DNA of 64,000 nucleotides from Dryocola clanedunensis subsp. sulfonylureivorans (GTDB lineage: Bacteria > Pseudomonadota > Gammaproteobacteria > Enterobacterales > Enterobacteriaceae): NCBI RefSeq assembly GCF_016756775.1, contig NZ_JAERMU010000002.1, forward strand, positions 124,001-188,000, in the 5' to 3' direction. Under the pieces are notes generated by a model that was given only the letters and a program-made list of their open reading frames with translations, was not told the DNA's origin and did no database searches. Shown here piece by piece: positions 52,778-60,705 of the stretch; the first letter of the stretch is position 1; each line of letters starts with the position of its first letter. The translations under genes were made by a program, and so were the position numbers.

Positions 52778-53785
52778 TTACTGGAAACCGCAAGACTCAC
52801 GCACCACCAGAGCAGGCGGCAGGATAATGCGCTTTGGCGGCTCATCATTACCCTGTATGCGGCTTAACAGCAGCTCTCCCGCTTTACGGCCAATCTCTTT
52901 AGCGGCAACCGAAACCGTGGTCAGAGCAGGCTGCACAAGGGCTGCTTCCGTGATGTCATCGAAGCCCACCAGGGCGAAATCTTTGCCCGGCGTCCGTCCC
53001 ATTTTGCGTAAAGTCTGCATAACGCCGAGCGCAACGATGTCCTGATAACAGACGGCGGCGGTGATCTCCGGGTAGCGGCTAAGCAGCGCTTCCGCCGCTT
53101 TTGCCCCGTCGCTCTGGCTGGCGGCCGTCGACACGACCCAGTCGCTGCAAGGCTGGATACGGTGCTCCAGCAGCTTGCTGCTGTAGCCGCCAATACGCTG
53201 GGCGCGGCTGATCGAGTTTTCGCTGCCGCCTATAAACGCGATGTGGCGGTGACCCAGCCGCAGAAGATGCTGTGTGGCCAGCTGTGTCCCCAGAAAATTA
53301 TCCGTGCCCACAAAATCAAAGCTGACGTCGTCCAGCGGACGCACCACCATAATGGCCGGGATGCTGCGGCGTTTTAGCGTTTCGAAAAACAGCGGCGGCG
53401 TTTCACGCGCAGCGCAAAGCACCATGCCACAGGCATTGTTGCCCATCAAAGAATCGACGAATTTCTGCTGGCGAACGCCTGACTCTTCACTATTTGCCAG
53501 AAACAGCAGCAGGTCGTGCCGCTCCATCTCCTGGCTCAGCCCCGCCGTCATCTCACCGTAAAATGGGTTGGTAATATCGTGCAGCAGCAGCCCGACCTGG
53601 TTACTGGAACGGTTACGCAGGTTAGCGGCGGTCTGGTTATAGACGTAGCCAAGCTCATCTAACGCCTGCATGACGCGCCGGCGAGTCGCATCCGAAATTC
53701 GCCCCCGGTTGTGTAACACCATGGAAACCGTGGCGGTAGAAACGGACGCTCGTTGCGCCACCTGGGCCAGGGTAACAGTGCTCAT
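52778..53785 (-). CDS. LacI-family transcriptional regulator of the adjacent PTS/isomerase locus
   Basis: 335 residues, of typical LacI/GalR length. The helix-turn-helix and hinge occupy residues 4-58 (TLAQVAQRASVSTATVSMVLHN), followed by a periplasmic-binding-protein-like effector domain. It resembles MalI-type regulators in general plan but is not MalI. It is divergent from the PTS operon across 196 bp that hold three operator-like palindromes and a CRP site. One operator (53816-53831) lies 30 bp from its own start, so autorepression is likely. The effector is probably a sugar phosphate or the incoming sugar; this is inference. Confidence 0.88.
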   Translation of the reverse strand: MSTVTLAQVAQRASVSTATVSMVLHNRGRISDATRRRVMQALDELGYVYNQTAANLRNRSSNQVGLLLHDITNPFYGEMTAGLSQEMERHDLLLFLANSEESGVRQQKFVDSLMGNNACGMVLCAARETPPLFFETLKRRSIPAIMVVRPLDDVSFDFVGTDNFLGTQLATQHLLRLGHRHIAFIGGSENSISRAQRIGGYSSKLLEHRIQPCSDWVVSTAASQSDGAKAAEALLSRYPEITAAVCYQDIVALGVMQTLRKMGRTPGKDFALVGFDDITEAALVQPALTTVSVAAKEIGRKAGELLLSRIQGNDEPPKRIILPPALVVRESCGFQ

Positions 53786-53815
53786 TTTCGCTCCTCACTA
53801 AAGCTCGCCTTCAGA

Positions 53816-53831
53816 GATTAATCGAATAACC
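53816..53831. promoter_or_regulatory. LacI-type operator 1
   Basis: GATTAATCGAATAACC differs at two positions from the palindrome GGTTAATCGATTAACC found at 60666. It is near the regulator's start. The protein that binds is inferred. Confidence 0.65.
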
Positions 53832-53850
53832 AAATAACTGCCTGTTCACC

Positions 53851-53866
53851 TGTGAATGGCATCACA
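53851..53866. promoter_or_regulatory. CRP site between the regulator and the PTS operon
   Basis: TGTGAATGGCATCACA matches the CRP consensus TGTGA-N6-TCACA with no mismatch. It lies midway in the divergent intergenic region, so it could serve either promoter. Confidence 0.85.
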
Positions 53867-53905
53867 GTTAACGGCTTCTCCCGAGATTAAATCGCGGATA
53901 TGGCG

Positions 53906-53922
53906 GGTTAATCGCGTTAACC
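53906..53922. promoter_or_regulatory. LacI-type operator 2 (17-bp variant)
   Basis: GGTTAATCGCGTTAACC carries the same GGTTAA/TTAACC half-sites, but with 5 bp between them instead of 4. Its centre is 31.5 bp (about three helical turns) from operator 3. Confidence 0.65.
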
Positions 53923-53937
53923 ACCCTGTTCAAACAA

Positions 53938-53953
53938 GGTTAATCGATTAATC
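53938..53953. promoter_or_regulatory. LacI-type operator 3
   Basis: GGTTAATCGATTAATC differs from the perfect palindrome at one position. It lies 29 bp before the ATG of the first gene of the PTS operon, where it would block transcription. Confidence 0.75.
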
Positions 53954-53981
53954 TTAAATTATCGACATCAGGGAGCCATTT

Positions 53982-55727
53982 ATGAAGCACGCGACGTACG
54001 ATAAGTATCCTGAAGTATGCATCAAAGGGTTTGAAAATCAGGCCTGGTCCGGCTGGCAGGCTATCCGCCAGGCGCTGAAGGCGCGACTGACGGACATGGG
54101 AAAAACCGTTGTAGTTATTGACTGTTACCCCGGCGTTCGGCTTGAAGCGCTGCGTGAAAAACTGATTGATACGCTTAACCCGCAGCTGCTCATCAATGCC
54201 GAAACGGCTCGCCTGAGCGAACAGCATCTGCACGATCTTCTGGCACAAAATCTGACGGACGATCGCGTGTTCGGCGTCCTTTCATGCCACCAGCTTGACG
54301 AATTTTTCTGCCCCGATAAGCTCGCCGCGCTTCAGCAGGAAGTGGAGCTGGCAAGCGGACTGGTCGTGGTGTATGGCCCCGGCGCTGCGCTGGTGCATGA
54401 GGGCGATATTCTGGTGTACGCCGATTTAGCCCGCTGGGAAATCCAGCAGCGTTTTCGTACCGGTGAGCTGGGCAACTGGGGCGCCAGCAACGAAAACGAA
54501 GATATTCTGCGCCGCTATAAACGGGCCTTTTTCATCGAATGGCGCGTGTTTGACCGCCATAAAACTCCCCTCCTGAAACGTGCCGATTTCCTGCTGGATA
54601 CCAACGCGGCTGACAGCCCTGCGATGGTAAGCGGTGAAGCGCTGCGTCACGGACTACAGCAAACTACCCAGCGGCCGTTCCGCGTGGTGCCATTCTTCGA
54701 CCCCGGCGTGTGGGGCGGACAATGGATGAAAGACAAATTCGATCTCGATCCCGCAAAGCCAAACTACGCATGGTGTTTTGACTGTGTGCCCGAGGAGAAC
54801 AGCCTGTTACTGCGTTTTGGTGATGTGCGGATCGAGATCCCCTCTCAGGATCTGGTATTGCTCTACCCTCGCCCGCTGCTGGGCGAAAAGGTTCACTCGC
54901 GCTTTGGGGCAGAATTCCCGATCCGCTTCGATTTCCTCGACACCGTGGGCGGCCAGAACCTCAGCTTCCAGGTTCACCCGCTGACCGAATACATCCAGCA
55001 GCACTTCGGCATGCACTACACCCAGGACGAAAGCTACTACATGCTTGAAGCCGAGCCGGGGGCAGAGGTTTATCTCGGCACCAGAACGGGTATCGATCCG
55101 CAGGAAATGCTCGACGATCTGGCGAGCGCCCAGCGCGGCGAGAAAGCGTTTGACGATGAGAAATTCGTTAACCGCTTCCCGGCGCGCAAACACGATCACT
55201 TCCTGATCCCGGCGGGCACCGTTCACTGTTCCGGTTCGGGGGCGATGGTGCTGGAGATCAGCGCCACGCCGTACATCTTCACCTTCAAACTGTGGGACTG
55301 GGGTCGCCTGGGGCTGGACGGTCTGCCGCGCCCGGTACATCTGGAGCACGGCGCGCAGGTTATCGACTGGCAGCGGGATACGGCGTGGGTCACCGAGCAT
55401 CTGATTAACCATTTTGAACCCGTAGCCGAAGGCGACGGCTGGCAGGAAGAGCGGACAGGGCTGCACGAGCGGGAGTTTATCGAGACGCGCCGCCACTGGT
55501 TCAACAAGCCGGTCGTTCATCACACCCACGGCGGCGTGAACGTGCTTAATCTGGTCGAAGGCATCGAGGCCCTGGTGGACAGCCCGACTGACGCCTTCGA
55601 GCCGTTCATCGTTCACTACGCCGAAACCTTTATCATCCCCGCCGCGGTCGGCGAATACCGCATTTCACCTTACGGCAGCGCCGCAGGTCAGCAGCTTGCC
55701 ACCATGAAAGCCTGGGTAAGAGGATAA
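53982..55727 (+). CDS. Class I mannose-6-phosphate-isomerase-like protein with extra N-terminal domain
   Basis: 581 residues against about 390 for ManA. Residues from about 235 on form a type I phosphomannose isomerase: FQVHP (Q330, H332), the E350 region (DESYYMLEA) and H415 in IPAGTVH supply metal-ligand-type residues, and LWDWGR and a second cupin half follow. Residues 1-230 are an added domain whose strands (VVVID, GLVVVYGPGAALV, ILVYADLARWEIQQR) recall uridine-kinase/phosphoribulokinase folds, but I see no GxxxxGK[ST] P-loop. It starts after GGGAG and heads the PTS operon, suggesting it isomerises the imported sugar phosphate to a glycolytic intermediate. Confidence 0.82.
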   Translation: MKHATYDKYPEVCIKGFENQAWSGWQAIRQALKARLTDMGKTVVVIDCYPGVRLEALREKLIDTLNPQLLINAETARLSEQHLHDLLAQNLTDDRVFGVLSCHQLDEFFCPDKLAALQQEVELASGLVVVYGPGAALVHEGDILVYADLARWEIQQRFRTGELGNWGASNENEDILRRYKRAFFIEWRVFDRHKTPLLKRADFLLDTNAADSPAMVSGEALRHGLQQTTQRPFRVVPFFDPGVWGGQWMKDKFDLDPAKPNYAWCFDCVPEENSLLLRFGDVRIEIPSQDLVLLYPRPLLGEKVHSRFGAEFPIRFDFLDTVGGQNLSFQVHPLTEYIQQHFGMHYTQDESYYMLEAEPGAEVYLGTRTGIDPQEMLDDLASAQRGEKAFDDEKFVNRFPARKHDHFLIPAGTVHCSGSGAMVLEISATPYIFTFKLWDWGRLGLDGLPRPVHLEHGAQVIDWQRDTAWVTEHLINHFEPVAEGDGWQEERTGLHEREFIETRRHWFNKPVVHHTHGGVNVLNLVEGIEALVDSPTDAFEPFIVHYAETFIIPAAVGEYRISPYGSAAGQQLATMKAWVRG

Positions 55728-55731
55728 AAAC

Positions 55732-56160
55732 ATGATCAATATCGTTCTGGCGACACACGGCTCACTGGCCGACGCGCTGCTGACAAGCTCCCACATGGTG
55801 TACGGCGAACTGCCCCACGTTTTCCCGGTCATGCTCAGCGAAACAAAAGGCATCAACAGTTTTAGCGAAGAGTTTGCCGCCGTGCTCAAAGAGGCCAGCA
55901 AAGGGGCGGACGGAGTGATAGTGCTGTGCGATTTGCAAAGCGGCACGCCGTGGAACGTCGCCTGCCATCACGCTTTTAATCCGCAAACGCAGCCGCCCGT
56001 TGCGGTGCTGGCCGGGGTTAACTTCCCGATGCTGCTGCTCAGCGACGAGATAAAAGACCTTACCTGTCTGACAGAGGCAACCGGGCAGTTGCTGGCACAA
56101 TCCCGCGACTCGCTGGTTGAGGCTCGCCTGGTCGAAACCGTGCAGTCCGATGATTTTTAA
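55732..56160 (+). CDS. Mannose-family PTS EIIA component
   Basis: 142 residues, a free-standing IIA-Man domain. The phosphorylated histidine is H9 in IVLATHGSLADAL, and the later DLQSGTPWNVA stretch is typical of the family. It receives phosphate from HPr and passes it to the IIB protein encoded next. It starts 4 nt after the isomerase-like gene. IIA and IIB are separate genes here, unlike the fused E. coli ManX. Confidence 0.92.
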   Translation: MINIVLATHGSLADALLTSSHMVYGELPHVFPVMLSETKGINSFSEEFAAVLKEASKGADGVIVLCDLQSGTPWNVACHHAFNPQTQPPVAVLAGVNFPMLLLSDEIKDLTCLTEATGQLLAQSRDSLVEARLVETVQSDDF

Positions 56161-56169
56161 GGAGGAAAA

Positions 56170-56664
56170 ATGAGCATTTCATTTGTGCGTATCGACGACC
56201 GGGTTATTCACGGCCAGCTTGTCACCCGCTGGGCGAAAGAGCTGCCGTGCGACGGGATTGTCGCCATCGACGACGCCGTGGCTGCCGATCCCCTGCTCTC
56301 GTCGGTGATGAAAGGGGCCGTTCAGGACATCAAGGTCTGGCTGTTCGACACCCAGACGGCGATTGAGAAGCTGCCGAAGATTATCGCCAGCGAGAAGCGT
56401 TACTTCGTGATTGGCAAATCGCCGGTCACCCTGAAACGTATAGAAGAAGCGGGGATCAGCCTGCAAAACGGCAACCGCAAGATTAACGTCGGGCCGATGA
56501 GCGCCCGCGCGGGTACCACCACCATCGGGCCTAACCAGGCGGTGACCCAGCAAGAGGCGGCAGCGTTTGATTTTCTGTCGCAGCAGGGCCACCAGGTTGA
56601 GTTTCGTCTGGTGCCGGACGCCAGCTGCTACAGCTGGCAGGACGCACGACAAAAAATCAAATAA
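56170..56664 (+). CDS. Mannose-family PTS EIIB component
   Basis: 164 residues, a IIB-Man/sorbose domain. The phosphorylated histidine is H14 in VRIDDRVIHGQLVTRW, the strongly conserved family start. It phosphorylates the sugar during transport through IIC/IID. An AGGAGG lies 5 nt before the ATG, and it follows IIA by 9 nt. Confidence 0.93.
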   Translation: MSISFVRIDDRVIHGQLVTRWAKELPCDGIVAIDDAVAADPLLSSVMKGAVQDIKVWLFDTQTAIEKLPKIIASEKRYFVIGKSPVTLKRIEEAGISLQNGNRKINVGPMSARAGTTTIGPNQAVTQQEAAAFDFLSQQGHQVEFRLVPDASCYSWQDARQKIK

Positions 56665-56675
56665 GGGAACGCATT

Positions 56676-57470
56676 ATGGCTTTTGAAGCTGCATTAATCG
56701 GCCTTCTCTGTTACCTCGGTGCGCTCAGTAGCCCCTGGCTATTTGGGCTGACCGGCGGCTGGTATCTGATTACCCGCCCACTGGTTTCAGGGATGCTGGT
56801 CGGGTTTATCCTCGGCGATGTCCAGACCGGGATTATCATCGGCGTCGCCGTGCAGGCGGTGTACATTGCGATGGTAACCCCGGGAGGATCGATGCCCGCC
56901 GATCTTAACTTTGTCGCCTTCCCGGCCATCGCGCTGGGGATCCTATCCAATAAGGGGCCGGAAGTAGCGGTTGCGCTGGCGGCAACCATCGGCATTGCGG
57001 GAACCGTGTTGTTCAACGCCATGATGGTGCTGAATTCCTGGTGGAACCACCGGGCGGACATCGCGCTGGAAAAAGGCGATGAGCGCGGCGTGTACCTTAA
57101 CAGCGCCATCTGGCCACAGTTCACCAACTTCCTGATGCGCTTTATTCCCACCTTTATCGCCGTCTACTTTGGCGCGCAGTACATCAACGCCTTCATGGAC
57201 AGCCTGCCGCACATCGTGCTGTCGACCATGAACGTGCTGGGCGGCATCCTGCCTGCGGTGGGTATCGCCATCCTGCTCAAGCAGATCATCAAAAACTACA
57301 GCATGCTGATTTACTTCCTGGTGGGCTTCATCTGCATCGTTTTCCTGAAGCTCAACATGGTGGCGCTGGTTATCGTCGGCAGCCTGCTGGCCCTGATCCA
57401 CTACAACTACAAGCCGGAGCCGCAGACCGCAAGCGCGGTAAAACCGGCCGATGACGAGGATGAATTCTGA
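56676..57470 (+). CDS. Mannose-family PTS EIIC component
   Basis: 264 residues, strongly hydrophobic with several membrane helices, an EII-Sor/EIIC-Man type permease subunit. The segment GVAVQAVYIAMVTPGGSMPADL near residue 50 is characteristic of the family. The C-terminal tail (KPEPQTASAVKPADDEDEF) is charged and probably cytoplasmic. Its TGA overlaps the ATG of the IID gene by one base. Confidence 0.92.
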   Translation: MAFEAALIGLLCYLGALSSPWLFGLTGGWYLITRPLVSGMLVGFILGDVQTGIIIGVAVQAVYIAMVTPGGSMPADLNFVAFPAIALGILSNKGPEVAVALAATIGIAGTVLFNAMMVLNSWWNHRADIALEKGDERGVYLNSAIWPQFTNFLMRFIPTFIAVYFGAQYINAFMDSLPHIVLSTMNVLGGILPAVGIAILLKQIIKNYSMLIYFLVGFICIVFLKLNMVALVIVGSLLALIHYNYKPEPQTASAVKPADDEDEF

Positions 57471-58285
57471 TGGAAGAACGCAAACTTACCCGCCAGGATC
57501 TCAGACGCTGCTGGCGTAGCTGGATGATGTACAACCTCTCCTCAATGAGCTTTGAGCGCCTGGAATCCTTCGGCTTTTGCCTGAGCATGCTGCCGGTGGC
57601 GAAGAAGCTCTACCCTGACGAGCAGGAGCGCAAGGAGATGCTCAAGCGCCATGCTTCGTTCTATAACACCGAGCCGCAGCTCGGGGCGATTGTGAACGGC
57701 ATGGTGCTGGGGCTGGAGGAGAAGCGCGCCAACGGCGAACCCATCGACGGTGAAACGATTAACACCCTGAAGGTGGGCCTGATGGGGCCGGTCGCCGGGA
57801 TTGGTGATTCGATGATCCCCGGCATGTTGATCCCCATCCTGCTCAGCATCGGCATGGCGCTGGCGGCGGGCGGCAATATCCTCGGGCCGCTGTTTTACTG
57901 CGTGGCGTGGCTGGCGATTATCATCCCCGGCTCGTGGTTCCTGTTCTTAAAGGGCTACCGCATGGGGTCAACGTCCGTTGAGATGCTGGTCAGCAGCAAA
58001 TCAACCCGCCTGCGCGAGGCGCTTTCGCTGCTCGGCGTCTTCGTCATGGGCGGCGTGGCGGCAAGCTACGTGAAGCTGGGCACCGGGCTGGAGTTCATCA
58101 CCAAAGACGGCGTGAACATTCACCTGCAGCAGATGCTGGACGGTATCTTCCCGAACCTGCTGCCGCTTATCGTGGTCATTGGCACCTGGTATCTGATGGC
58201 GAAGCGCGGCGTGTCGCCCGTGAAAGCCATGCTGCTTTTGCTGGTTCTCGCCGCGGCTGGCGTGGCGGTTGGGCTGTTTGCCTGA
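57470..58285 (+). CDS. Mannose-family PTS EIID component
   Basis: 271 residues, the partner membrane subunit of IIC; IID proteins are unique to the mannose PTS superfamily. Family hallmarks are the N-terminal LTRQDLRRCWRSWMMYNLSS segment and the central GLMGPVAGIGDSMIPG motif, with hydrophobic helices at the C-terminus. It is the last gene of the operon, followed by a hairpin at 58294-58334. The transported sugar cannot be read from the sequence. Confidence 0.92.
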   Translation: MEERKLTRQDLRRCWRSWMMYNLSSMSFERLESFGFCLSMLPVAKKLYPDEQERKEMLKRHASFYNTEPQLGAIVNGMVLGLEEKRANGEPIDGETINTLKVGLMGPVAGIGDSMIPGMLIPILLSIGMALAAGGNILGPLFYCVAWLAIIIPGSWFLFLKGYRMGSTSVEMLVSSKSTRLREALSLLGVFVMGGVAASYVKLGTGLEFITKDGVNIHLQQMLDGIFPNLLPLIVVIGTWYLMAKRGVSPVKAMLLLLVLAAAGVAVGLFA

Positions 58286-58293
58286 GGTGACAT

Positions 58294-58334
58294 GCTGCCC
58301 CCTGGAGAAATCTTATTTATTCGCCAGGGGCAGC
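58294..58334 (+). terminator. Hairpin after the PTS operon
   Basis: GCTGCCCCCTGG and CCAGGGGCAGC pair with a single bulged C around an AT-rich loop, just after the EIID stop. No T-run follows, so termination is uncertain. Confidence 0.5.
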
Positions 58335-58541
58335 AGCAATGACGAGCAAATTTAATTAATACTGAACAGAATATTTAATGCCACTTAGTTTTATGCTGTA
58401 AAATACTCTCCTTCCCGAGCAGAACGCCTGTTTATAATCCTTCATGGCGGTAAGTCATGAGTAAACCGCTTATTTCCATTTCCTTTCCCCTGCTATATAA
58501 TCGATCTCGTTCTAAGCATCCGTATTGTAAAAGGATTAATA

Positions 58542-59207
58542 ATGGATGAAGTTAACTGGAGCTTAATTGATAAAATTGTCTTTATTAATCTGGAAAGTCG
58601 CCCCGATCGATTAATTGAAATCACTGCTGAATTAAAAAAGGTCAAAGCCCCGGCAGATAAAGTCATTCATTTGAAAGCTATTAAAGAAAAAAACGGTGCC
58701 GTGGGATGTGCAAAATCACATATTGCCGCGCTGGAAATGGCCAGAGATAACGGCTGGAATAACGTTCTTATTCTTGAAGATGATATGGTTTTTGAAAATG
58801 ACAGCCAGTCCTGTACCAGGCTCAATAATTTCCTCGATAAACTGGTAACGATAAGCTGGGATGTCGCTTTTCTCTCCGCCAGTTATTATATCATCAAAAA
58901 AATGACGGAAGGTTTCTACAGGGTAGAATGGGCCTACATGGCAAACAGCTACCTTGTTAACCAGCATTATTACAGGAAACTGATAAATACCTTTTCCGAG
59001 GCAATTTATCGGATGCAAAACATCGAAGCCAACGCCGGTATAGATGCCAGCTGGATAAAACTGATGGAGAAGGATAACTGGTACGGTGTTTATCCCTGCG
59101 TTGGCTATCAACGCCCGGGGCAGAGCGATATAGAAAAGAAGATTATCGATCGACGAGATCACTTTAAACGACCAATTGATGATATAAAACGCTTTGGGTC
59201 ATATTAA
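58542..59207 (+). CDS. Family 25 glycosyltransferase (LPS-biosynthesis type)
   Basis: 221 residues with the GT25 pattern: INLESRPDR (15-23), GCAKSH (55-60) and ILEDD (77-81), the acidic motif expected to bind the metal-nucleotide-sugar. Enzymes of this family add sugars to lipooligosaccharide or capsule-like glycans; donor and acceptor cannot be predicted here. No signal peptide is visible, so it is probably cytoplasmic. Gene and upstream region are visibly AT-rich (many AAT, ATT, AAA codons) compared with the GC-rich neighbours, suggesting separate acquisition. It stands alone, without other glycan genes nearby. Confidence 0.85.
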   Translation: MDEVNWSLIDKIVFINLESRPDRLIEITAELKKVKAPADKVIHLKAIKEKNGAVGCAKSHIAALEMARDNGWNNVLILEDDMVFENDSQSCTRLNNFLDKLVTISWDVAFLSASYYIIKKMTEGFYRVEWAYMANSYLVNQHYYRKLINTFSEAIYRMQNIEANAGIDASWIKLMEKDNWYGVYPCVGYQRPGQSDIEKKIIDRRDHFKRPIDDIKRFGSY

Positions 59208-59232
59208 AATGCCGTTATATACCGCAGAGATC

Positions 59233-59277
59233 CCCTTCTCCCCGCCTTTCCAGGGAGAAGGGAGAAGGGAGAAGGGA
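59233..59277. repeat. Hairpin with 7-bp tandem repeat between convergent genes
   Basis: CCCTTCTCCC (59233-59242) pairs with GGGAGAAGGG (59253-59262). The right arm continues as three perfect GGGAGAA units plus a partial one (59253-59277). It may act as a terminator for either converging gene. Confidence 0.7.
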
Positions 59278-59283
59278 CAAAAG

Positions 59284-60066
59284 CTAAGGATGAAAATTCA
59301 CCCATTTCTGGGCGGCCATTCCCGGCTTCGAGATAAACTGGAAGCGGGCCGGATCATCAATAAACTGCTGGTACAGCGGCTCACCGGTGATACCAAACTC
59401 GCTGTAAATCCTCGGTGAGGTCACCTGTAACCGCCCCGGCATATAGCGGCGGTTATGCTGCCAGGCGATGTGCTCCTCCTGTAAAAGAGGATACCAGGCA
59501 AGCCCCTTCATGGCGCGCACCGCATCATATTCAAAACCGTACTCCCGATCGCACCATGCGCCAAACGTCAGCGGTTCGTCCGGTGAGGCTGAGATAGTGG
59601 CGTGCGCCCAGCCCGGCGGAACAAGCACCTTCTCCCCGGGCCCTGCGCAGACGGCGAAGCAGCGCCCCGGATCGTCCGCCACAAATTCCTGCATATAGAT
59701 AATCGCTTTGCCCTGCCAGACCTCGTACAGCTCCGGCGGCGACCAGCCGCTGTGTCCGCTGATGCGGTGGATATGCCCCTGGCTACGAATGGGTTCGTCG
59801 CCCAGTCTTCCACGGGCGTAGGTCACCACGCCGAACAGCAGCATGCGCTTTTTCAGCTCGTCACGATCTTTGAGGCGGGCAACGTCCATCGCGATAGCGT
59901 ACACATCCTCGGGGCCGTCGCACGTCGGATCCCGTAAAGAAGCGCGGACCTGATCCAGCTTGCGGATCTCCGGCACCGGGCCGATCACCTCTTCGCCGTA
60001 GCTGAAGCCCATCGGCGAGTGGTGGATCGCCATATCCAGACCAAAACTGCGCGCTGATTCAGCCAT
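59284..60066 (-). CDS. Cupin glucose-6-phosphate-isomerase-like protein (second gene of pair)
   Basis: 260 residues. A cupin core resembles archaeal-type phosphoglucose isomerases: GHIH (H98, H100), a glutamate in PPELYEVWQGKA (E112 or E115) and H155 in PPGWAHA make the expected metal set. It is longer at both ends than its 187-residue neighbour, so it may differ in substrate. It overlaps that gene's 3' end by 8 nt, and the pair is transcribed from the promoter next to operator 60666-60681. The isomerase activity is inferred; a related keto-aldo isomerisation is equally possible. Confidence 0.7.
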   Translation of the reverse strand: MAESARSFGLDMAIHHSPMGFSYGEEVIGPVPEIRKLDQVRASLRDPTCDGPEDVYAIAMDVARLKDRDELKKRMLLFGVVTYARGRLGDEPIRSQGHIHRISGHSGWSPPELYEVWQGKAIIYMQEFVADDPGRCFAVCAGPGEKVLVPPGWAHATISASPDEPLTFGAWCDREYGFEYDAVRAMKGLAWYPLLQEEHIAWQHNRRYMPGRLQVTSPRIYSEFGITGEPLYQQFIDDPARFQFISKPGMAAQKWVNFHP

Positions 60067-60622
60067 TTTGCACCTCCTTCGCCTGGATTTTTCCTCCGAA
60101 TCCCGTCACGCGCAGGGCAAATCCCTCGGCCAGCGAACGATAATCGTGCCCGGCGACGGTCGGCCAGACGGCGAGAGCAGAAAGGATTTCAGTACCGGTA
60201 TTAATGAGCCGGTGGGCTGTATTGCCCGGAATGATATGCACAGAGCCGGGTGAGACCTGCTCCAGCCGCGCCTCACCCTGCTCGTTTTGCAGCAGCAGCA
60301 GGCCGCTGCCGCGAATGCCGAAATAGACTTCACCCTGTTCGCGCCGCTGATGGAAATGTCCGCGAGTCATGTAGAACTCATCGCCTACCAGGCCAGGATG
60401 CAGGTGCGTCATACCGACGTACAGCTCCCCTTCGCCCTGCGGCGAGTCCAGCATTTCAACTTCATAAACCGGCGTATCGGCGGGAATCGCCTGCCAGGCG
60501 GTAAAATCGTGGAAGACACCGCTTAGATCGCCGCAGCGGGTTACTTTTTTAATAACGTTACCGCCCGAGAACTGGCCAGTAAGAAACGCCACGCCCGGCG
60601 GCATGCTGATGGATGTACTCAT
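60059..60622 (-). CDS. Cupin-type glucose-6-phosphate isomerase (first gene of pair)
   Basis: 187 residues, the size of archaeal cupin phosphoglucose isomerases. The metal ligands appear as H89-x-H91-x6-E98 in TRGHFHQRREQGEVYFG and H137 in IPGNTAHR, the pattern known in Pyrococcus furiosus PGI shifted by one residue. Such enzymes interconvert glucose-6- and fructose-6-phosphate. A second, unrelated Pgi-type enzyme is normal in enterobacteria, so this one probably serves a dedicated sugar pathway. A GGAGAAAG ribosome-binding site precedes the ATG, and a perfect LacI-type operator lies 44 bp upstream. Confidence 0.85.
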   Translation of the reverse strand: MSTSISMPPGVAFLTGQFSGGNVIKKVTRCGDLSGVFHDFTAWQAIPADTPVYEVEMLDSPQGEGELYVGMTHLHPGLVGDEFYMTRGHFHQRREQGEVYFGIRGSGLLLLQNEQGEARLEQVSPGSVHIIPGNTAHRLINTGTEILSALAVWPTVAGHDYRSLAEGFALRVTGFGGKIQAKEVQNG

Positions 60623-60623
60623 T

Positions 60624-60705
60624 TACTTTCTCCGGCCCAAGGAGAACTGCGTAGCCAGTATAGCCGGTTAATCGATTAACCGAAGCCTTCAAGCCGGAGA
60701 AAGTA
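60624..60705. repeat. 13-bp inverted repeat flanking the cupin-pair operator
   Basis: TACTTTCTCCGGC (60624-60636) and GCCGGAGAAAGTA (60693-60705) are perfect inverted copies 56 bp apart. The left copy holds the cupin gene's ribosome-binding site and the operator sits between the arms. Confidence 0.7.
60665..60682. promoter_or_regulatory. LacI-type operator 4 (perfect palindrome)
   Basis: CGGTTAATCGATTAACCG is a perfect 18-bp palindrome with the central CG typical of LacI-family operators. Its 16-bp core is shared, with one to few changes, with the three sites at 53816-53953. Confidence 0.8.

Follow-up and report, generated by a model that had tools for sequence, protein, structure and literature searches.

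In a 64,000-nt stretch of the genome of Dryocola clanedunensis subsp. sulfonylureivorans (contig NZ_JAERMU010000002.1, positions 124,001 to 188,000; hereafter the window) we describe a candidate local sugar regulon. It joins a LacI-family regulator gene, a mannose-family phosphotransferase system (PTS), a 581-aa protein that we call ManX in this analysis, and two cupins, CUPA and CUPB, whose operon is preceded by the same operator motif as the PTS operon. Comparison among relatives supports the regulon well at the sequence level. We give even chances to the reading that it imports a hexose, most likely mannose, which ManX and the cupins would feed into metabolism. The parts are known ones in an unusual combination, which includes a domain of no recognised family and a cupin whose reaction is in doubt.

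Operator sites and gene content

A motif scan of the window found the perfect palindrome GGTTAATCGATTAACC, with 0 mismatches, at 60666-60681 and variants of it between the regulator gene and ManX (Table 1). A preliminary description of this DNA had named four operator sites, and all four are present, three by the palindrome scan and the 17-bp form by exact match. The sole further match in the window at up to three mismatches (57749-57764, 3 mismatches) lies within the EIID gene. None of 100 window shuffles reached four operator matches, the mean being 0.10 per shuffle, and the 17-bp form at 53906-53922 had no match at two mismatches or fewer in 100 shuffles. The whole genome has six places at two mismatches or fewer, three of them at window sites; of those elsewhere two fall, by eye, in gene-like reading frames and one is intergenic. 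Operator copies elsewhere in the genome are few, so the regulon looks local; a LacI-type local sugar regulon would have just this arrangement, with palindromic operators at the promoters of the regulator gene and its targets and few elsewhere. The site at 53851-53866 is called CRP-type from TGTGA-N6-TCACA, which we take to be the CRP consensus.

Gene content is as the preliminary description had it, except that its two-part mannose-6-phosphate isomerase is a single protein, ManX. The mannose-family PTS is complete, with EIIA, EIIB, EIIC and EIID domains all over their Pfam cut-offs.

Table 1. Genes and candidate sites of the regulon in the window
Feature	Position	Strand	Basis or remark
LacI-family regulator, 335 aa, nearest to MalI	52778..53785	-	Pfam LacI + Peripla_BP
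Operator O1, GATTAATCGAATAACC	53816..53831	.	2 mismatches vs palindrome
CRP-type site, TGTGAATGGCATCACA	53851..53866	.	between operators; TGTGA-N6-TCACA
Middle operator-like site, 17 bp, GGTTAATCGCGTTAACC	53906..53922	.	exact
Operator O3, GGTTAATCGATTAATC, upstream of ManX	53938..53953	.	1 mismatch vs palindrome
ManX	53982..55727	+	residues ~1-230 no recognised family; rest type I phosphomannose isomerase
Mannose-family PTS EIIA	55732..56160	+	PF03610
Mannose-family PTS EIIB	56170..56664	+	PF03830
Mannose-family PTS EIIC	56676..57470	+	PF03609
Mannose-family PTS EIID	57470..58285	+	PF03613
CUPB, 260-aa cupin of PF06560	59284..60066	-	Pfam; metal ligands kept
CUPA, 187-aa cupin of PF06560, close to archaeal phosphoglucose isomerase	60059..60622	-	PDB 1j3p, E 4e-38
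Putative -10 box TATACT of CUPA promoter	60657..60662	-	directly downstream of operator; by eye on alignment
Operator before CUPA-CUPB (perfect palindrome)	60666..60681	.	motif scan + conservation

Conservation of the sites among relatives

We took 35 regions around ManX from a sample of 295 genomes of the window's family. An operator at two mismatches or fewer, starting 58-61 bp ahead of the CUPA start codon, is kept in 28 of 31 CUPA loci (window included), where dinucleotide shuffles give 0.005 such matches expected per set; the loci without a close operator are L058 (3 mismatches), L066 (7) and L067 (4). Alignment of the 31 lacI-manX gaps shorter than 400 bp shows flanks that have drifted around conserved operators. 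In these gaps the CRP-type site is exact in 24, with one mismatch in four and two in three; the 17-bp middle site is exact in 17 and within two mismatches in 27. That the shared motif is a chance likeness between unrelated operons is therefore hardly credible, being contradicted by conservation at a fixed position and by the shuffles.

O1 and O3 lie 121-123 bp apart in 26 of the 34 loci where both sites are listed, 131-132 bp apart in six (L061, L062, L064-L067), and 186 and 188 bp apart in two; for L062, L065 and L067 the distances rest in part on sites with 3 mismatches. The 131-132 bp class is about one helical turn longer, which would suit DNA looping.

Beyond these regions we tested seven more gammaproteobacterial loci: the operator recurs within three mismatches in six (Photobacterium, three Aeromonas, Enterovibrio and a Pluralibacter record, a duplicate of L065), and Vibrio L095 has none within three mismatches near ManX. 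Outside the gammaproteobacteria the best place near ManX has at least six mismatches in all seven loci tested.

An inverted repeat, TTCTCC-TTGGGCC-GGAGAA (60628-60646), lies over the CUPA ribosome-binding region and is conserved, its pattern TTCTCCTNGGGC being present in 29 of 31 loci. It was considered as an RNA switch and set aside: shuffled sequences fold as well as the window copy does (z 0.50), so we make no structural claim.

Recurrence of the gene set

Of the 295 family genomes 44 matched a ManX profile at E 0.001, and in 36 the match was strong (E <= 3.5e-188). A CUPB profile matched 36, with 31 at full length (E < 1e-100) and weak or fragmentary matches in G002, G086, G171, G201 and G260. 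All 31 full-length-CUPB genomes fall within the 36 strong-ManX genomes, with both genes in one region (hypergeometric P 4e-37, uncorrected for shared ancestry), and none of the 295 has full-length CUPB but lacks ManX. The converse, strong ManX in the absence of full-length CUPB, occurs in five (G107, G054, G171, G004 and G201), and in G201 fragments of ManX and CUPB both lie on another contig.

With the same strict cut, full-length CUPB was found in 3 of 296 genomes from the phylum of Dysgonomonas, 2 of 398 from the phylum of a Clostridiaceae record, and 6 of 398 from the window's own phylum, all six being of the window's family. The cut left out weaker matches to other PF06560-like cupins, in 83 genomes of the Clostridiaceae-phylum sample and one of the own-phylum sample; in three such stretches that we inspected (L178-L180) no ManX was recognised. 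The non-family strict CUPB genomes number five, of which two were seeds. G484, G545 and G960, found by the CUPB profile alone, have ManX within 1.6 kb of CUPB.

CUPB stands near ManX in four phyla beyond that of the window (Bacillota, Bacteroidota, Chlorobiota and Acidobacteriota). The pair is accompanied by ROK kinase and/or MFS permease genes in L115, L119, L146, L147, L149, L152, L175 and L176, and by a mannose-family PTS outside the family in L116 and L177; neither PTS nor ROK/MFS was recognised in L110, L125, L135 and L136. An exception is a Parabacteroides distasonis contig carrying CUPA-ROK-CUPB-MFS without ManX, and in the same strain GH92 and GH38 genes accompany ManX on another contig. 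CUPB presence was mapped on a quickly built ManX tree of 95 rows, which has some long branches, and requires nine changes; leaving out 25 rows, the count is eight, five of them forced by well supported branches.

ManX itself is widespread, with at least 575 relatives; we kept the 80 best. In Escherichia coli, megablast of the whole locus found no match, and a sensitive search with the manX-EIID segment gave no more than a 58-bp stretch within a manX gene, in 6 of 5426 genomes. Among the titles listed from an open-access library none suggested this locus, which is not proof of absence.

These data bear on the earlier proposal that one regulator serves both operons. It is supported by the operator fixed ahead of CUPA and by the pairing of full-length CUPB with ManX, and it does not hold strictly for the gene set, for Pantoea conspicua, two Mixta records and one Sodalis record have PTS and ManX with no cupins nearby. 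The same genomes fit an alternative in which the cupins are redundant phosphoglucose isomerases carried by operon shuffling and only the PTS and ManX matter, as does the closeness of CUPA to known enzymes of that kind. We regard it as quite improbable: the operator ahead of CUPA is kept, and the association with ManX recurs.

ManX

At E 0.001 neither Pfam nor NCBIfam gives a match to ManX. Its residues 228-456 match the phosphomannose isomerase of PDB 1qwr, and Q330, H332, E350, H415 and R442 are invariant in 17 of 17 sequences, giving the Gln/His/Glu/His metal site and substrate Arg of the type I enzymes. We take the checked positions to be active-site residues of 1qwr, which presumably comes from Bacillus subtilis. 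No convincing relative was found for the N-terminal ~230 residues (best PDB match E 0.18; best Pfam match E 0.0084, to BrxB, in 2 of 22 members). A degenerate uridine kinase had been suspected there by eye and is not supported, as hhalign against PF00485 gave E 0.087 over 31 columns and 0.12 over 14.

Some loci carry other forms. L069 and L071 have a diverged ManX (~50-54% identity), a mannose-family PTS and two operator-like sites ahead of ManX; L071 adds mannitol-1-phosphate-dehydrogenase-like, AGE-epimerase-like and zinc alcohol-dehydrogenase-like genes, and L069 is alike by eye. In L177 a ManX ~37% identical to its best match, perhaps of a second ManX subfamily, accompanies a full mannose-family PTS, a GntR regulator and CUPB.

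The two cupins

CUPA aligns with the archaeal cupin phosphoglucose isomerase (1j3p) over residues 22-183 of its 187, and CUPB is a distant relative of that enzyme. Passages of PMC6627849 give the metal ligands of cupin phosphoglucose isomerases as His/His/Glu/His and call His158 and Tyr152 critical in the Pyrococcus enzyme. The four ligands are kept in 12 of 12 CUPA and 11 of 11 CUPB alignment rows. We mapped the two Pyrococcus positions onto the cupins through alignments. That of Tyr152 holds Trp in all 12 CUPA rows and Cys in all 11 CUPB rows, and that of His158 holds His in CUPA and Phe in all 11 CUPB rows, so that neither cupin has both residues. Among family copies CUPB reads Cys, Phe, Tyr in 31 of 31, and CUPA reads Trp, His, Tyr in 27 of 31, those fitting the spacing pattern. 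Because residues that those passages call critical are changed here, CUPA and CUPB may not be ordinary phosphoglucose isomerases. This lends some support to the earlier suggestion of a non-glucose product on which the cupins may act.

Neighbouring genes

A gene with a weak match to glycosyltransferase family 25 (GT25) lies at 58542-59207 between EIID and CUPB, with a GC content of 0.41 against 0.56 for the window. We do not count it in the regulon: tblastn finds none in the 35 relatives' regions, and its GC content is low. IUNH and the genes beyond it are left out too, since the operator sits between IUNH and CUPA; IUNH is also absent or displaced in many relatives' regions. In L046 a cellobiose/lactose-family EIIC gene and a GH1 gene stand between EIID and CUPB, and the gap in L047 is equal in size.

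Substrate

Our best guess for the substrate of ManX, made from gene neighbourhoods, is mannose or a mannoside, because alpha-mannosidase genes often neighbour ManX. We analysed 121 loci in which ManX is nearly complete; some of them occur twice, having come from two collections. The outside-family group comprises 63 of them and includes Enterobacterales L099 and L102, duplicates of family loci; GH family names are from Pfam on representatives. In this group 24 of the 48 loci without CUPB have a GH38 or GH92 gene no more than 12 kb from ManX. Enterobacter sp. ENT03 (L059/L088) has a GH38 gene between the operator and ManX on the same strand, L078 has MngA-like and GH38 genes beside CUPA, and L065, L097 and L098 have ManX with a glucose-family PTS and GH38.

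Several observations weigh against mannose as the sugar of this regulon, and the guess carries distinctly less weight where both cupins are present. GH38 or GH92 is found at only 2 of the 15 CUPB loci outside the family, compared with the 24 of 48 above (Fisher p 0.016, phylogeny uncorrected); with GH2 added the figures are 4 of 15 and 26 of 48 (p 0.08, phylogeny again uncorrected). By Pfam there is no glycosidase gene in the two operons of the window. A canonical manA is present elsewhere in the genome, where TIGR00218 matches one separate gene and not ManX, and the genome has three further mannose-family EIID genes. To these are added the cupin changes described above, at the Tyr152 position in both proteins and at the His158 position in CUPB. 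Where the preliminary description had left the substrate unknown, the ManX neighbours in other phyla do point to mannose or mannosides, much less so at CUPB loci.

Part of this evidence would suit a different substrate. The regulon might serve a rarer hexose, with the PTS making its 6-phosphate and CUPA, CUPB and ManX acting in series, at least one of them in an unassigned reaction (e.g. isomerisation plus epimerisation). The restriction of full-length CUPB to ManX genomes in the family sample, the Trp in CUPA and Cys and Phe in CUPB where characterised enzymes have Tyr152 and His158, the manA already in the genome and the scarcity of alpha-mannosidases at CUPB loci would all fit. We hold this to be possible and somewhat unlikely. 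Plain aldose-ketose isomerases join only mannose-6-phosphate, fructose-6-phosphate and glucose-6-phosphate to glycolysis and cannot bring other hexose-6-phosphates into it, and four outside-family CUPB loci do have GH38 or GH2 (L115, L119, L146 and L147). Given this chemistry, the earlier suggestion that the imported sugar phosphate needs more than one isomerisation stays a conjecture.

Proposed mechanism and meaning

In the hexose regulon that we favour, with mannose the likeliest sugar, a MalI-like LacI repressor would occupy two or three operators around the divergent promoters of lacI and manX and a single one over the promoter of cupA-cupB. It would leave them in the presence of the sugar (or its phosphate); CRP-cAMP would activate the manX side. 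The mannose-family PTS would import the hexose as its 6-phosphate, and ManX would convert the imported phosphate, in the likeliest case turning mannose-6-phosphate into fructose-6-phosphate. CUPA, and probably CUPB, would be metal-dependent sugar-6-phosphate isomerases that work on this pool and either connect it with glucose-6-phosphate or deal with a companion sugar.

A bolder proposal, which we consider speculative and on balance unlikely, is that ManX, CUPA and CUPB form an undescribed hexose-6-phosphate pathway. It would be present in five phyla or more, supplied either by a PTS or by a ROK kinase together with a permease; the CUPB reaction would not be ordinary glucose-6-phosphate isomerisation, and the N-terminal domain of ManX would be a new regulatory or catalytic domain.

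Here a shared motif leads to a regulon that can be tested and whose gene set is defined, and it points to a widespread fusion protein, ManX with its unrecognised domain, and a companion cupin, CUPB, recurring together across phyla. Knowing the substrate would allow these genes to be annotated in hundreds of genomes, given the number of ManX relatives, and would explain why bacteria with ManA retain three extra isomerases.

Comparison with known systems

The C-terminal part of ManX and its checked active-site positions are shared with the type I phosphomannose isomerase (Bacillus subtilis-type, 1qwr). Unlike that enzyme ManX has an extra ~230-residue N-terminal domain, and TIGR00218 does not match it. 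Both window cupins have the metal-ligand positions of the cupin-type phosphoglucose isomerases (Pyrococcus, Thermococcus; PF06560), and they differ from these at the Tyr152 position and, for CUPB, at that of His158 and in being only distantly related.

As in the mngA-mngB mannosylglycerate system, some relatives have, next to ManX, an MngA-like PTS gene, a GH38 gene or both, whereas neither gene is in the two operons of the window; two GH38 proteins scored 648 and 655 bits, far below the mannosylglycerate hydrolase cut-off of 1138. On a Salmonella plasmid (L157) a ptsG-annotated gene adjoins a cupin annotated as of the glucose-6-phosphate isomerase family, followed by adjoining hxlB and hxlA, and resistance genes are annotated nearby. 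The likeness is in the PTS gene next to such a cupin; this cupin is 25.7% identical to CUPB over part of its length, hexulose-phosphate genes stand alongside, and no ManX is listed.

The regulatory layout is closest to MalI-malXY of Escherichia coli, where, according to PMC5543585, a GalR/LacI-family repressor has a 16-bp site at its own and the neighbouring malXY promoters. The best NCBIfam match of the window regulator is MalI (PRK10014), at 308.3 bits, just under the cut-off of 310, so it is MalI-like and falls short of assignment to MalI. The target genes differ: the window has a mannose-family PTS, isomerases and a second target operon, whereas MalX is presumably a glucose-family PTS and MalY, we assume, stands in the E. 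coli system where the window has its isomerases.

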